From Chloroflexota bacterium (lineage in GTDB: Bacteria; Chloroflexota; Dehalococcoidia; JACQGW01), in contig JACQGW010000163.1 in NCBI GenBank assembly GCA_016199325.1, forward strand, positions 1 through 14,617: DNA of 14,617 nucleotides. Direction: 5' to 3'. Each line of letters starts with the position of its first letter. Position 1 is the stretch's first letter. Of the stretch, positions 6,940-11,767 are shown in pieces. Both the position numbers and the translations under genes were made by a program. The notes below the pieces were generated by a model. That model saw nothing but the letters and a program-made list of their open reading frames with translations, did not search any database and was not told where the DNA came from.

Positions 6940-7653
6940 TTACGTCCGCTGTGACCGGCGGCTCGCCGCACGGGCCATGTCGTCGATGGCTTGCTGTCCG
7001 GCAATGGCAAGTCGTTCCTGGAACTTGGCGGGGTCGTTCCAGCGGAAGCCGACGAATTCGGCGTAGAAGGGTGCAAGGCGCAGCCCTTCCCGGCGCCGCC
7101 CGCGTGAAGCCAGGACGTAGTTCAGCACGAGCTCGACCGTCGGCGCGTCCGTCCAGTCGGACCGAAAGAGCACCTGGCCCCCGCGGCCGATGAGGTAGGT
7201 CATATTCGGGCGCGCCCCGTACAGCCGATGTCCGGTGCCCGGCAGGTCGTCGACCAGGATCGGCCGCGCGATGGCGAACCGATCGCGGAACGCCCTGGCC
7301 TGGGCGAGCTTCTGTTCCAGGCTGCCGTGGGCGGGGAAGTTCTCACCTGGATGTGCCTCGCGTGTGTAGACGAAGACCGAGGCAAACCCCTTGTCCGCGT
7401 AGTCGCGCGCCAACTGCTCCATGGCCGGCGCCGCCAGCCCGCAGTATGGTCAGGTGAGCGAGCCGAACTCCACCAGGACGTCTCGATCGCGCCAGCAATC
7501 GCTCAGGCGCATGGACTGGCCGCTTTCCATCAGCGTCACGGCGAAGTCCGGCGCTGAAGAGCCGGCCGGCGGCGCCGGACGAAACGCACTGCCATCGTCC
7601 GAGCCGTCGAAGGCGCTGTAGTTGTAGGTCTCGACTTCCGTGAGCGTGCCCAT
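6940..7653 (-). CDS. Deiodinase-like redoxin, probable selenoprotein (Sec68)
   Basis: The protein is 237 aa if the in-frame TGA at 7450-7452 is read as selenocysteine; standard calling would give two fragments. The start ATG has GAGG 8 nt upstream. Residues 30-66 follow the redoxin pattern (APDF, then VLVEFGSLT), leading into U68-P-Y-C71. The surroundings match the FGSxTU segment of the iodothyronine deiodinase/redoxin group, followed by FVYTREAHP, which resembles the EAH motif of that family. No signal peptide is seen, so it is likely cytoplasmic. Probable role: a selenol-dependent thiol peroxidase or reductase; bacterial relatives need not act on iodothyronines. The frame ends at TAA. It is 106 nt downstream of operon II and has its own promoter. 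Sec insertion needs selA/B/C/D elsewhere in the genome. Confidence 0.85.
7423..7452 (-). other. Sec codon TGA plus candidate bacterial SECIS hairpin
   Basis: TGA is at 7452-7450 on the minus strand. Ten nt later comes a 7-bp stem, GGCTGGC / GCCGGCC (one G-T pair), with loop GGC, covering 7439-7423. The loop is 18-20 nt after the TGA, within the range known for bacterial SECIS apical loops. The hairpin lies inside the coding frame, as bacterial SECIS elements do. Confidence 0.7.
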
Positions 7654-7677
7654 TCGTTGTCCTCGTCTCCTGAGAAT

Positions 7678-7728
7678 CCGGCGATCTCGCCGGGCGCATT
7701 GTATACCCTTCTTCACGTCGAGCAAAGC
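7678..7728 (-). promoter_or_regulatory. Promoter and palindromic operator candidate for deiodinase-like gene
   Basis: On the minus strand a TACAAT -10 (7703-7698) lies 17 nt after TTTGCT, a weak -35 near 7726-7721. A perfect palindrome CCGGCGA-GA-TCGCCGG occupies 7678-7693, covering the expected transcription start, about 38 nt before the ATG. This placement would suit a repressor operator or a 5' hairpin in the mRNA. Confidence 0.5.
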
Positions 7729-7759
7729 GACGCTGGAGCTCGCTCTCACCGCCTTGTGG

Positions 7760-9202
7760 CTACCGAGCCGGCTCCGCGGTCGGCCGGATCCCGCGCAGCC
7801 GGTCCCGGACCACGGCCAGTTCCGCGACCTCGCGCTCCTTGCCGACCTGGTCGGCGCTCCAGCGCACGACTTCCGAGAAGGTCGGATACGGGTGGAGCGT
7901 GTCGCCGACGGTCCAGGCGCTGACGTTCCCCGCCATGGCGACGAGGATCTCGCCGATGAGATCGTTGGCGTGGGCGCCGACGATCGCCGCCCCCAGGATC
8001 TGGCCGGTCGCTCGGTCGGCGATGGTCTTGACGAATCCCTCGGTCTGGCCGGTGATGATCGGTCGGGTCACCTCGTCGTAGCGGACCACCCTGACCTCGA
8101 CGTCCAGCCCCTGGCGCCGCGCCTCATCCTCTCGCATCCCGACGGCGGCCACCTCTGGAATGCTGTAGATCGGGCGCGGCACCACCCGGAAGTCGACCAT
8201 CTTCACCGGCCGGCCGTGCGCCGCGTTCCAGCCGGCGATCTCGGCGGCGTAGTCGCCGGAATGGGTGTACATGTGCTTGCCCGTCACGTCGCCTGCGGCC
8301 CAGATATGCGGCACGTTCGTCTGCATGGCCGCGCCGACCGGGATGCCGGCCGGCGATGCGACGACGCCCGCGCGCTCGACGTGAAGGTCGGCGAAGCGGG
8401 GCCTGCGTCCGGCGGCGAGCAACAGGTGGGCGCCGGCCACGCGCTCGGTCCCGCCCCCCTCCAGCTCGACGGCGACGCCGGGCTGCCCGCCGACCATCTC
8501 CAGCGCACGGGCCCGGCCGCGTACGACGCGGATCCCCCGCCGCTCGAAGGCGGCGGCCAGCGCCTCGCCGACGTCGGGGTCCTCCCGCGCCGCCGGGCGC
8601 CGCCCGACCAGCGCCACCGCCGTGCCCATCGCACGGAAGAAGGAGGCCAGCTCGCAGCCGATGATGTTCGAGCCGACGATCACGAGCGAATCCGGGCGCT
8701 CGCGCAGCTCCAGCGCGCCGTCGCTGGTCAGAAACGGCACCCGGCCAACGCCGGGCAGGTCGGGCACCTGCGTCTCCGAGCCGGTCGCAATGACGAGCTG
8801 CCCGGCCGTGTAGCGGGCGCCGCCGATCTCAAGGGTGCGCGGGTCGATGAAGCTGGCGGAATCCGCCAGCAGCTCGATCCCCTGTCGGCGCAGGCTCTCG
8901 ATCGGCCCCTCGCCGGAGAAGCCTTTGATGATCCGATCCTTGCGGGCCATCACGGCGGCGAAGTCGATGGAGACCTCGCCGACAATGATGCCAAGCTCGC
9001 CGGCCTGTCGAATCATCTCGGCCACTTCGGCCGCGCGGAGCAAGGTCTTCGTCGGCACGCAGCCGACGTTGAGGCAGGTGCCGCCGAGCTTCCAGCGCTC
9101 GACCATCGCGACTGTCCGGCCCAGCCTGGCGGCAGTGCTTGCGGCGGCGTAGCCGGCTCCACCACCGCCGATCACGATCACGTCAAAGTGGTTCTCTGCC
9201 AT
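7760..9202 (-). CDS. Mercuric-reductase-like FAD-NAD(P) disulfide oxidoreductase
   Basis: The protein is 480 aa from the second ATG (9202), which has AGGGG 6 nt upstream; the ATG at 9208 lies directly on that site. It has the complete class I disulfide reductase layout. The FAD motif GGGGAG is near 12-17, the redox pair is in GTCLNVGCVPTK (Cys43/Cys48), the NAD(P) site is around VIVGSNIIGCELA, the second FAD motif is WAAGDVTG, and the C-terminal active-site segment is HPYPTFSE. A Tyr replaces the lipoamide-dehydrogenase base His, as in MerA, but the heavy-metal N-domain and the paired C-terminal cysteines of true MerA are absent. It begins 21 nt after the glutaredoxin gene, so the two are co-transcribed. 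This suggests electron delivery to a thiol or selenol system. Mercury reduction itself is doubtful. Confidence 0.9.
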   Translation of the reverse strand: MAENHFDVIVIGGGGAGYAAASTAARLGRTVAMVERWKLGGTCLNVGCVPTKTLLRAAEVAEMIRQAGELGIIVGEVSIDFAAVMARKDRIIKGFSGEGPIESLRRQGIELLADSASFIDPRTLEIGGARYTAGQLVIATGSETQVPDLPGVGRVPFLTSDGALELRERPDSLVIVGSNIIGCELASFFRAMGTAVALVGRRPAAREDPDVGEALAAAFERRGIRVVRGRARALEMVGGQPGVAVELEGGGTERVAGAHLLLAAGRRPRFADLHVERAGVVASPAGIPVGAAMQTNVPHIWAAGDVTGKHMYTHSGDYAAEIAGWNAAHGRPVKMVDFRVVPRPIYSIPEVAAVGMREDEARRQGLDVEVRVVRYDEVTRPIITGQTEGFVKTIADRATGQILGAAIVGAHANDLIGEILVAMAGNVSAWTVGDTLHPYPTFSEVVRWSADQVGKEREVAELAVVRDRLRGIRPTAEPAR

Positions 9203-9223
9203 GGGCATCCCCTGATTTCGCTC

Positions 9224-9508
9224 TTATCGTGCTCGAACGATCTCATAGTCGACGAAGCCGAACAGGATGTCAAGCTCGTCGGCCGAGGGGTTGGTCAGGA
9301 TGCGGCCGTCGACGTCCCAGGTCGGGACGGTGCGATCGCCGCCATTCCAGCGCTCGACCCGGCGGGCGGCGGCGGGATCCGCTTCGACGTCGATCTCGAC
9401 GTAGGGCAAGCGTCGGCTTGCGAGGTATCGCCGTGCGAGTCGGCAGTACGGGCACCAGCTCGTCGTGTAGATCGTGATCTGGAGGTGTTTGCGCAATTGC
9501 TCGGTCAT
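9224..9508 (-). CDS. Glutaredoxin family protein
   Basis: The protein is 94 aa from the ATG at 9508, with AAGGA about 10 nt upstream; the longer in-frame form to 9631 has no homologous content. After a short N-tail it has the strand ITIYTTSW, then the redox motif C19-P-Y-C22, TVPTWDVDG with the cis-Pro (about 59-67), and a C-terminal helix. It is a cytoplasmic dithiol glutaredoxin/NrdH-like protein that would reduce disulfides using glutathione or a flavoprotein reductase. It is first gene of operon II, and the MerA-like flavoprotein 21 nt downstream is a plausible electron donor (inference). Confidence 0.9.
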   Translation of the reverse strand: MTEQLRKHLQITIYTTSWCPYCRLARRYLASRRLPYVEIDVEADPAAARRVERWNGGDRTVPTWDVDGRILTNPSADELDILFGFVDYEIVRAR

Positions 9509-9617
9509 GGGATTGTGATCCTTGTGGCTATTGGTGTTCGGCCCGTCGCATCCTGTCGGTGCTGCCACCTGCGGGCCCAGCCCGACCAGGGACAAGATCG
9601 CTCTCAGCCGACACCAC

Positions 9618-9662
9618 CAATCATGCGCCATTCGTCCACTTCGCTCCGTAACATCGCTTACG
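9618..9662 (-). promoter_or_regulatory. CRP/FNR-like class II promoter of operon II
   Basis: The palindrome CGTAA-N6-TTACG lies at 9647-9662. On the minus strand the hexamer CATGAT (9625-9620) is centred 32 bp downstream, placing the palindrome at -41.5. The neighbourhood aligns without gaps with 12336-12380: CAATCATGC is identical and lies exactly 29 bp from the palindrome in both. The likely transcript start is near 9613, about 105 nt before the glutaredoxin ATG. Confidence 0.6.
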
Positions 9663-9696: not shown

Positions 9697-9769
9697 GGCC
9701 GGGCGCTGAAGCGCCAACTACGAGCGGGGGCGCTCTCCTCGTTCGTAGTTGGCGCTTCAGCGCCCGGCC
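9697..9769. repeat. Perfect 27-bp inverted repeat with 19-nt loop
   Basis: Arms at 9697-9723 and 9743-9769 are exact reverse complements. Each arm contains a nested palindrome (GGCGCT-TC-AGCGCC on one strand). It starts 32 nt past the end of the Sec-thioredoxin gene, so it could end or stabilise operon III mRNA. There is no T-run on either side. Its size and nested symmetry also fit a REP-like dispersed element. Confidence 0.85.
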
Positions 9770-9800: not shown

Positions 9801-10316
9801 TCAGTCACCGGCGTACCGAGCGAGTCGCTGCTCAAAGCCGGCCGCCGTTGGAATGTAGCCGAAGCGATCGACCTCTTCCCCACGGGCGTCGAGCACGACG
9901 AAGGTTGGCGTGCTGAAGATGCGGAACGTGCGAAGCTCCGCGCGCGCGTGGTCGACGTCCTTCTCGACGAATACGAGCTTCTCGGCGAATCGGGCTGCCG
10001 ACGGTTCCACGAACCGCTCCATCTCGTGGCAGGCATCTCACCAGGTGGCCGAGAACCAGGCCACCGTGAATCGTCCGTCGGCACGGGGCGAGCCTGGCGA
10101 TGGCAGCGGCGCCGTCGAGTGGTGGACCGTGTGGATGCCGCGGTGAACGACGACGTCGGCCCGGTCGACCAGGCCTGATCCCGTGGGGGCCGGACCGCCC
10201 GCGGCCGGCTGCGACGCCGAAGCGCCACAGCCGGCCACGCCGAGCAAAGCAAGGAGGCTGAGCAGCAAGGGAGCGAGAGATCGAAGTTGTCTGCCAAACT
10301 GGGACTGAGGGAACAT
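9801..10316 (-). CDS. Thioredoxin-like lipoprotein, probable selenoprotein (Sec93)
   Basis: The protein is 171 aa if the in-frame TGA at 10038-10040 is read as selenocysteine. The ATG overlaps the DUF3179 stop by one nt (TGATG), with GGAGAG upstream. A signal peptide with a Leu-rich core ends in the lipobox GVAGC (lipidated Cys30), so the protein is extracytoplasmic and membrane-anchored. A low-complexity linker leads to the thioredoxin fold: FTVAWFSATW, then U93-D-A-C96-H-E-M, FVEKDVD, and the cis-Pro loop STPTFVVLDARGEEV. This resembles the DsbD C-terminal/TlpA type, with Sec in place of the attacking Cys. Without read-through the product would be only a linker, and the remaining 73-residue piece would lack the active-site half. 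It is last gene of operon III. Substrates are unknown. Confidence 0.85.
9995..10040 (-). other. Sec codon TGA plus candidate bacterial SECIS hairpin
   Basis: TGA is at 10040-10038. A perfect 6-bp stem CGGTTC/GAACCG with loop GTG lies at 10016-10002, 22-36 nt after the TGA. An outer 5-bp stem CTGCC/GGCAG joins 10032-10028 with 9999-9995. The GU in the apical loop and the loop distance (28-30 nt) fit known bacterial SECIS features. Confidence 0.72.
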
Positions 10317-11767
10317 CAAGGCTCTCTCCGAACGGTGGTCTGCGGCTTGAAGGCGGCCCAGGCGAACCAGAAATGCGTGCCGCTGACGACGGGCTCGAGC
10401 CGTTGCCCGGCGAGCGGTCCGGCCGTGGCGCGGCCCAGGATGTCCCAGGTCGAGCCCGTCTCAGCGTCGCGGAAGCCGTCGCTCGCTGCCGCGAAGGTGA
10501 GCGATCGGTCGCCGACGCGCGGCTTGAAGACACCGGTCGCGCCGATGTCGCGGGAGCTGCTCATCTGTCCCCGGTCCAGCGATGAGAGGGCACCCCGGGC
10601 AAACAGGACGACGACAGGTGTCCGGCCGACGGTGTCGTGGATGACCCGCCGCTCGGCCAGAACGCTGAACGGATAGGCGACGTCGGCGCCGTCGAGACTC
10701 ACGGTGACGACGCGCTCCATCGGCCGCAGCCGCCCGTCGGCCGGCCCGTCGTAGAGAAATGGCGACGAATCGACGTTGTCGTAGCCGACGTACGGGTTCT
10801 GACCGTAGTTCCGCGTGTAGCCGGTCTCGCGGGCCAGGACGGCGCCGTTGGGATGGGCCTGCTTGAACTGGCCGAAGCCGACGATCTGGGCCGGTATCGG
10901 TTCCAGCCGGGTGCCCGCCAGGCTCCCGACGATCGCCTCGCCGGTGATCTGCTGCCACCAGCTCTCCGTCCTGTCGTCCCACATCACGAGATCGGAGTGG
11001 CGGAGGTTCCCGGTCGTCCCGAAGCGGAGCGTGCCCTGGCCCGGCACCCGGCGGTCGAAGGCGATGGCCGTGTTGCAGAGCGGACAGAACGTCACGGCGA
11101 CCGGCGTGCCGCCGAAATCGTCATTGACGATCTCGTGCCAGATCAGGATCTGGAGGGGGTAAGCCCGGGCCTCCCCACTGAGCTCCACGGCGACAACGGG
11201 CTCGGCGTCGTTCAGCCAGTCGATCGTCCTGACGGCTGTCAGCACCGGTCGGTCGATCGGCGGGATGCCGTCACGTGGCGGACCGCCGGACGAGATCTCC
11301 GAAAGGGGGACCGTATGCCGGGAGAAGTCCGTCTTCCAGCCGCTCGTCGAGAACAGAATGCCGGCCAGCGGATTCGGCGTCGGGGTGGCCGCGCTCACGG
11401 CCATGGGCGCAGCCGTCGGCGACGCCAGCGCGGGCATGGCCGGGAGCGCAGGCGTCCCGCCTGCCCCTGCGGGTGCGGCAGGCGCCGTCGTCGCCCGTGC
11501 TGGGGCCGTCGCAACGGGGTGGGTCGTGTCCGACTGGCCGCCCGCAGGCGGCGTGCATGCGGCCAGCAAGACTGCCAGCGCGAATGCGGCCCAGCCAGCC
11601 AGCAAGCCGACATGCCCGCGCGCGATACGGTTGAACCGCCAAGACGCCAAGAACGCCAGGGCGCTCGCCAGAAATTCCGGGCAGACACCCATGCCAAATG
11701 CATGCCGGTGACTCTCCAGGCGGAGACCAATCCGTTGCGCAGGCGGCCGGCGGTCCTGTTGTACCAT
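10316..11767 (-). CDS. DUF3179 domain-containing lipoprotein
   Basis: The protein is 483 aa from the ATG at 11767. A lipoprotein signal (hydrophobic GLLAGWAAFALAVLLAAC, Cys71) lies unusually far from that start, so the true start may be an internal TTG about 30 residues before the lipobox. A Pro/Ala/Thr-rich linker (about 72-135) precedes the DUF3179 domain, with HEIVND at 211-216 and FCPLCNTA at 227-234 (Cys228/Cys231). It then contains repeated AGTRLEP / AGQRLEP segments. DUF3179 proteins are secreted and of unknown function; the conserved CPLC pair suggests metal or redox chemistry. The last base of its stop is the first of the Sec-thioredoxin ATG, so the thioredoxin could act on its cysteines (inference). 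Its first 45 codons lie inside a repeat-flanked segment. Confidence 0.88.
   Translation of the reverse strand: MVQQDRRPPAQRIGLRLESHRHAFGMGVCPEFLASALAFLASWRFNRIARGHVGLLAGWAAFALAVLLAACTPPAGGQSDTTHPVATAPARATTAPAAPAGAGGTPALPAMPALASPTAAPMAVSAATPTPNPLAGILFSTSGWKTDFSRHTVPLSEISSGGPPRDGIPPIDRPVLTAVRTIDWLNDAEPVVAVELSGEARAYPLQILIWHEIVNDDFGGTPVAVTFCPLCNTAIAFDRRVPGQGTLRFGTTGNLRHSDLVMWDDRTESWWQQITGEAIVGSLAGTRLEPIPAQIVGFGQFKQAHPNGAVLARETGYTRNYGQNPYVGYDNVDSSPFLYDGPADGRLRPMERVVTVSLDGADVAYPFSVLAERRVIHDTVGRTPVVVLFARGALSSLDRGQMSSSRDIGATGVFKPRVGDRSLTFAAASDGFRDAETGSTWDILGRATAGPLAGQRLEPVVSGTHFWFAWAAFKPQTTVRREP

Follow-up and report, generated by a model that had tools for sequence, protein, structure and literature searches.

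An in-frame UGA codon in the active site of a putatively anchored thioredoxin appears to encode selenocysteine in a probable Chloroflexota bacterium

A gene on the minus strand of the window (the whole 14,617-nucleotide stretch of DNA analysed here) would encode a complete thioredoxin lipoprotein were it not for a TGA triplet situated exactly at the codon of an active-site cysteine. Is this triplet a stop codon, a damaged cysteine codon or a codon for selenocysteine (Sec)? Our analysis favours the last of these readings. With a probability that we put at about 0.9, the thioredoxin gene is a genuine selenoprotein gene, and the bacterium, probably a member of the Chloroflexota, appears to use Sec in the active site of an externally anchored thioredoxin whose known relatives use Cys.

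The interrupted gene and its thioredoxin family

The gene runs from an ATG at 10316-10314 to a TGA stop at 9803-9801 on the minus strand and comprises 171 codons when UGA is read as Sec. Its start overlaps the stop codon of a gene for a DUF3179 protein (TGATG, 10318-10314) and two consecutive stops, TGATGA, close it at 9803-9798, the second TGA lying at 9800-9798. Within the open reading frame (10316-9804), the sole in-frame stop is the TGA at 10040-10038, codon 93, which provides the first residue of the redox pair in W-U-D-A-C. The joined product consists, in order, of a signal peptide with the lipobox L-L-G-V-A-G-C30 (10227-10316), in which Cys30 is the predicted site of lipidation, a low-complexity linker and a thioredoxin domain (residues 52-170; 9807-10163). 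The domain is preceded by a strand pair with the family motif H-T-x-x-H-S-x-x-P-L-P, and contains both W-U-D-A-C, where U93 and C96 constitute by sequence a redox pair in CxxC spacing, and the cis-Pro loop S-T-P-T-F, the Pro137 codon of which lies at 9906-9908 on the same strand.

The 171-residue product matched PF13098 (Thioredoxin_2) at 6.8e-9 and 36.5 bits (curated cut-off 27) and PF00085 (Thioredoxin) at 7.9e-8 and 32.7 bits (curated cut-off 23.5). An AlphaFold2 model was confident over approximately residues 55-170, with a block pLDDT of 86 at residues 51-60 and of 96-98 beyond, and displayed a thioredoxin fold with a cis-Pro loop and with a helix that begins at U93-C96; the best structural matches of the model were solved thioredoxins. 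The first-pass annotation had proposed, without naming the strand, a TGA in place of the first thioredoxin Cys, a lipoprotein signal and linker upstream of it and the rest of a thioredoxin fold with its cis-Pro loop downstream, and the Pfam matches, the model, P137 and the alignments described below bear out this layout. Upstream, the lipobox V-A-G-C30 lies behind a hydrophobic 17-mer that begins at residue 14 and has a net charge of +2 ahead of it. The first arginine is residue 9; the strict classical lipoprotein rule calls for a lysine or arginine among the first seven residues. From the lipobox and the hydrophobic stretch, the thioredoxin is predicted to be an exported, membrane-anchored lipoprotein.

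Standard gene callers split the gene into two meaningless pieces, and as a result the full-length protein is absent from the searched protein collection. A plain protein search with the joined product returned 892 candidates, none at E <= 1e-3, because thioredoxins are so common, and a scan of genome contigs with the thioredoxin gave 594 stretches that fitted a pattern, with no relative among them. Relatives were reached only by way of DUF3179, which led to Chloroflexota genomes and from there to a family profile. The best match among 301 Chloroflexota genomes was a 180-residue Cys-form protein of genome G243, 42% identical to the window protein and sharing with it the pre-domain motif H-T-x-x-H-S-x-x-P-L-P...D-G. 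A profile made from these two proteins identified eight strong members in 294 genomes of the class of G243, all of the Cys form, and the U93 column of alignment A3 is Cys in eight genome relatives; the Chloroflexota samples overlap between our searches.

Of 2733 candidates brought up by a broader protein search, 298 were relatives at E <= 0.01, and the best 120 of these were examined. The columns of U93 and of C96 are Cys in all 120 and the cis-Pro column is Pro in 119. Since these 120 relatives were retrieved with a profile that has Cys in place of U93, and from databases that cut proteins at UGA, Sec forms are under-counted among them. A hydrophobic 17-mer precedes the domain in 111 of the 120, and in 100 of these 111 the stretch follows a net positive charge; together, the two features suggest that the Cys-form relatives are anchored in the membrane and have their domain on its outer side. 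A simple regular expression for a lipobox matched none of the 120. Named relatives include Tepidiforma and Dehalococcoidia. With this anchored family (for instance P0124, 'thioredoxin family protein [Tepidiforma flava]') the window protein shares the motif, the domain, the C-x-x-C arrangement, the cis-Pro loop and an N-terminal anchor, and it differs from the family in having Sec and a lipobox where the relatives have Cys and mostly a transmembrane-type anchor. The window protein is thus, as judged from its sequence, a member of the anchored H-T-x-x-H-S thioredoxin family of Chloroflexota, and would add a Sec form to a family with Cys in every one of its 120 best listed members.

A second UGA form, the decoding machinery and the downstream hairpin

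Searching 400 Chloroflexota genomes with the family profile revealed a Sec ortholog in genome G597 (E 4e-41), where one TGA occupies the same codon as in the window and the active site reads T-L-V-W-F-S-A-T-W-U-P-T-C. The two thioredoxins are 54.7% identical over 106 residues. A 130-row tree with Cys entered for Sec joins them at 95/94; in this tree the branches of both Sec rows are long and the bootstrap had yet to settle. By score, G597 is the fourth-closest relative of the window, three Cys forms being slightly closer, while the window is the closest relative of G597. No Sec ortholog besides the window and G597 was found: the family search gave no match in 29 genomes of the class of G002 (at 1e-9) or in 158 of the class of G628, and a match in one of 41 of the class of G597, namely G597 itself. 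Low-scoring family matches with an internal TAG or TAA were present in G354, G554 and G036. A TGA in G093 was rejected as a Sec codon, as it is a normal stop codon that precedes a cytosolic thioredoxin.

A tRNA-SeC(tca) was identified in G597 by Rfam (73.9 bits), in agreement with ARAGORN. SelB was not found in this genome at E <= 1e-60, which we read as a putative effect of an incomplete assembly. SelB was above the cut-off in four of six genomes (G002, G093, G014 and G172) and in four of a set of nine (G148, G387, G449 and G489), and tRNA-Sec scored at least 66 bits in all of these, in G001 and in G597. ARAGORN confirmed tRNA-Sec at five of the six loci submitted to it. The sixth, a weak Rfam match of 48.9 bits in G243, was rejected as a tRNA-Ser; the Rfam match of G430 has the same score of 48.9 bits. 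As the Rfam tRNA-Sec cut-off was also reached in five of 14 control genomes, scores near 48 mean little. G387, G449 and G489 encode SelB and tRNA-Sec and keep Cys in their family member, so Sec is not required in the family. The coexistence of Sec and Cys forms in related bacteria makes the family a natural experiment on what Sec brings to an exported thiol reductase.

The first-pass annotation also described a hairpin with a GTG loop and an outer stem at the right distance from the TGA. Such a SECIS-like structure was present at 9995-10032 on the minus strand in the centroid fold, which contains an inner stem (10017-10011 with 10007-10001) closed by a GUG loop (10010-10008) and an outer stem, CUGCC/GGCAG (10032-10028 with 9999-9995). 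The inner stem has six pairs, CGGUUC/GAACCG, or seven with one G-U (10017-10001), and it alone is formed when the 68-nt piece is folded for minimum energy, which was ordinary (z -0.31). The bSECIS model, as given in the available part of PMC13188914, specifies a loop of 3-9 nt with a G within its first two positions, a stem of 4-16 bp, a spacing of 16-37 nt from the UGA and an MFE of -7.5 or lower. With a stem of 7, a loop of 3 (GUG) that starts 27 nt past the UGA and -8.5 kcal/mol, the hairpin agrees with this model. The specificity of these published criteria is low: they were passed by 105 of 300 synonymous recodings at a stem of at least 7, and by 183 of 300 at a stem of at least 4, and therefore discriminate little in such GC-rich coding DNA.

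Compared with synonymous recoding, the thioredoxin hairpin was not significant alone (p_syn 0.107; MFE p 0.39), which makes it a weaker argument for Sec than had first been supposed. For six Sec genes the corresponding p values were 0.107 (the window thioredoxin), 0.029, 0.161, 0.430, 0.034 and 0.100, giving a Fisher p of 0.005 against 0.31 for eight Cys relatives. The hairpin scores of the six (12.5-18.1) all exceeded those of the eight Cys controls (7.9-11.1), which include near-copies; the codon usage of the window was applied in all hairpin resampling. The window and G597 hairpins lie in different registers, and for this reason provide no covariation evidence for a thioredoxin SECIS. A search of the whole window against Rfam at the gathering threshold gave no match.

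A deiodinase-like gene and the reading of the UGA codon

The window carries what is by sequence a second selenoprotein gene, a deiodinase-like gene at 6940-7749 on the minus strand with a UGA at 7452-7450 (G-S-L-T-U-P-Y-C) and a match to PF00837 of 40 bits (cut-off 27). Twenty deiodinase matches were found in 18 of the 400 Chloroflexota genomes, 13 of them with one TGA. The TGA coincides with that of the window in 12 of 16 aligned loci and is one codon off in a thirteenth; L194-L197 are among the 16 because a TGA had already been seen in them. In three relatives that lack the TGA, its place is taken by Ala, Ser or Asp and not by Cys. A stem 10 nt past the UGA (7439-7433 with 7429-7423, minus strand) displays changes on both sides in six of its seven pairs over ten sequences, and its covariation score in these ten was reached by none of 500 shuffles, with slid partners scoring far lower. 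This count was based on ten of 14 sequences, L189, L194, L196 and L197 having been left out as their pair lies in another register. Over all 14, 76.5% of cells pair and the covariation score is 0.447, again reached in none of 500 shuffles, while the measure of 'further pair types' was matched by 42 of 500. It is thus very probable that UGA specifies Sec in this organism.

The thioredoxin gene itself reads on past its UGA without a break. A Cys-only profile of the 120 relatives, made without the window, gave 46.7 bits before the UGA and 77.3 bits after it in the same frame, against -2.3 and -2.7 bits for the other two frames and a maximum of 3.6 bits in 400 shuffles. There is no frameshift downstream, where conserved residues go on, and the GC content at third positions is 0.79 compared with 0.77 upstream. 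These observations weigh against the idea that an ordinary Cys thioredoxin gene acquired the TGA by nonsense mutation or through a sequencing error. A single base does part TGA from TGC, TGT or TGG, and chance read-through stops were seen in other search matches, such as the upstream stop of G093; an accident of this kind would nevertheless have placed the only stop of 171 codons precisely on the active-site Cys, in a window where another gene presents a like pattern with a covarying hairpin, and TGA recurs at this codon in an independent genome, G597. We regard such an accident as improbable.

Readthrough of TGA occurs in bacteria, and the codon might specify a standard amino acid through a variant code or plain readthrough. 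Yet TGA serves as the stop of five of the nine window genes with listed ends, including the DUF3179, GH15 and Sec thioredoxin genes, and tRNA-Sec is found in G597 and in other related genomes, so that we give this explanation very little credence. Equally slight in our estimation is the chance that the real protein is the 92-residue product ending at the UGA, with the remainder unused or forming a small gene from the ATG at 10022. A mechanical listing of open reading frames does yield exactly the pieces 10038-10319 and 9801-10022, but the cut falls within the active site of one thioredoxin domain, of which each piece holds a part, and a start at the ATG of 10022 (codon 99) would lose both active-site residues. 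The active site is spanned by all 120 of the best relatives, among which split ones would score too low to be listed. The pairing of Cys with Sec, the Sec ortholog of G597, the second Sec gene of the window and the tRNA-Sec of G597 are together our grounds for reading the UGA of the thioredoxin gene as Sec.

Related selenoproteins, neighbouring genes and possible function

The first-pass annotation held that an extracytoplasmic thioredoxin lipoprotein with Sec would be unusual. This holds for the literature consulted, and less so for the Chloroflexota, since G002 and G148 encode apparent Sec-containing thioredoxin-fold lipoproteins. Specifically, G002 has a TlpA-like lipobox protein with UGA at the first Cys (F-F-A-T-W-U-T-T-C; L127 4560, plus strand) and G148 a different lipobox thioredoxin with UGA at the first Cys (F-F-A-H-W-U-V-S-C; L173 4308, minus strand), both in genomes with SelB and tRNA-Sec. 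In G597, a redoxin/TlpA-like frame with UGA (W-A-S-W-U-G-C; L172 12424, plus strand) and no signal lies in the stretch separating a DUF3179 gene from the Sec thioredoxin; this W-U-G-C kind is listed as 'UGC-containing TlpA' (PMC13188914).

Even in the literature, Sec-containing thioredoxins are a known kind. Trx UxxC (PF00085) appears as an 'experimentally verified' selenoprotein in Table 1 of PMC13188914, which, in the part available, also gives PF13098 UxxC, cd02966 UxxC and UGC, and deiodinase-like UxxC as predicted Sec families. The window protein resembles the verified Sec thioredoxin in its fold and in its UxxC motif with Sec for the first Cys, and is set apart from it, by description, through belonging to a separate family that is exported, anchored and extended at the N terminus. 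Likened in the same way, by description, it has the best Pfam domain and the motif of the Sec thiol:disulfide interchange protein (PF13098, UxxC). The UGC-containing TlpA and cd02966 UxxC thiol-disulfide isomerase selenoproteins also combine a thioredoxin fold with Sec for the first Cys; they are of the TlpA/AhpC type rather than of the window's family, and G002 and G597 encode similar genes. An early survey recorded three selenoproteins in three families for Chloroflexi (Table 2 of PMC1794560). The main texts of PMC13188914, PMC9312934, PMC12013277 and PMC5029168 contain no word beginning with 'chloroflex', and no article whose title mentions a Sec-containing thioredoxin from Chloroflexota was found, supplements and subscription papers being outside the scope of this search. 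Within that scope, we found no Sec member of the window protein's family described.

Directly upstream of the Sec thioredoxin, at 10316-11767 on the minus strand, lies the gene for the DUF3179 protein (PF11376), which carries the motif C-P-L-C-N, invariant in 24 aligned DUF3179 sequences. DUF3179 proteins, whose function is unknown, include known Sec forms and constitute, as UxxC/T, a predicted selenoprotein family (PMC13188914, PMC9312934), from which the window's copy differs in having Cys (C-P-L-C). In G597 a DUF3179 gene lies about 2.5 kb from the Sec thioredoxin, and the thioredoxin and DUF3179 were the only genes shared by the two neighbourhoods in a clustering of open reading frames that was swamped by antisense frames. 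The DUF3179 signature occurred in one of the 11 loci scanned, that of G597 (L172), and in none of the eight loci with flanks around Cys-form members (L126, L198-L204). A general pairing of thioredoxin with DUF3179 was not supported, no clear family thioredoxin being found near 80 DUF3179 genes, many of them on short loci. In these 80 loci, tblastn gave two weak thioredoxin-like matches only (L070, E 0.002; L080, E 0.006). The matches of a motif scan were confined to L060, a locus in which the DUF3179 motif could not be found; the scan was insensitive, as it missed both tblastn matches. Among 12 deiodinase loci scanned with flanks of about 1.5 kb, one, that of G610, has a DUF3179 gene (L188 2374-3441, minus strand) near a Sec deiodinase-like gene.

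Based on these features, we propose a plausible course for the action of the protein. SelB and tRNA-Sec would recode the UGA at 10040-10038 to Sec, aided by the hairpin downstream. The product would then leave the cytoplasm, receive a lipid at Cys30 and remain attached to the outside of the cell membrane, as the lipobox and the anchored family suggest. By analogy with thioredoxin chemistry, U93 would act as the nucleophile on substrate disulfides in extracytoplasmic proteins and C96 would resolve the selenenylsulfide, after which a membrane donor would re-reduce the U93/C96 pair. The upstream DUF3179 protein could be the first candidate substrate, via its invariant C-P-L-C pair. That the Sec thioredoxin reduces this neighbour is only a hypothesis, for which the operon-like link offers a testable guess at the substrate of a family of unknown function.

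More tentatively still, and in our view doubtful as a general scheme, some Chloroflexota might operate an extracytoplasmic, membrane-tethered selenium relay composed of a Sec thioredoxin lipoprotein and DUF3179 with, in some places, a gene for a Sec deiodinase-like protein close by. Sec might then have been acquired repeatedly at the nucleophile of exported, anchored thioredoxin-fold proteins (window/G597, G148 and G002), so that Sec decoding would be coupled to lipoprotein export.

Several further features surround the gene. A near-perfect inverted repeat with 27-bp arms (9697-9723 and 9743-9769) lies between the Sec thioredoxin and glutaredoxin-like genes; this repeat (9697-9769), which was not found in the other loci compared, may be a terminator or a mobile repeat. 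The glutaredoxin/mycoredoxin-like protein (T-T-S-W-C-P-Y-C) is encoded at 9224-9631 on the minus strand, with a start that is possibly over-long. Two flavin disulfide-reductase paralogs, MerA/lipoamide-dehydrogenase-like, are encoded at 7760-9208 and 4-1349, also on the minus strand, and G387 has a related gene in the neighbourhood of its Cys-form thioredoxin.
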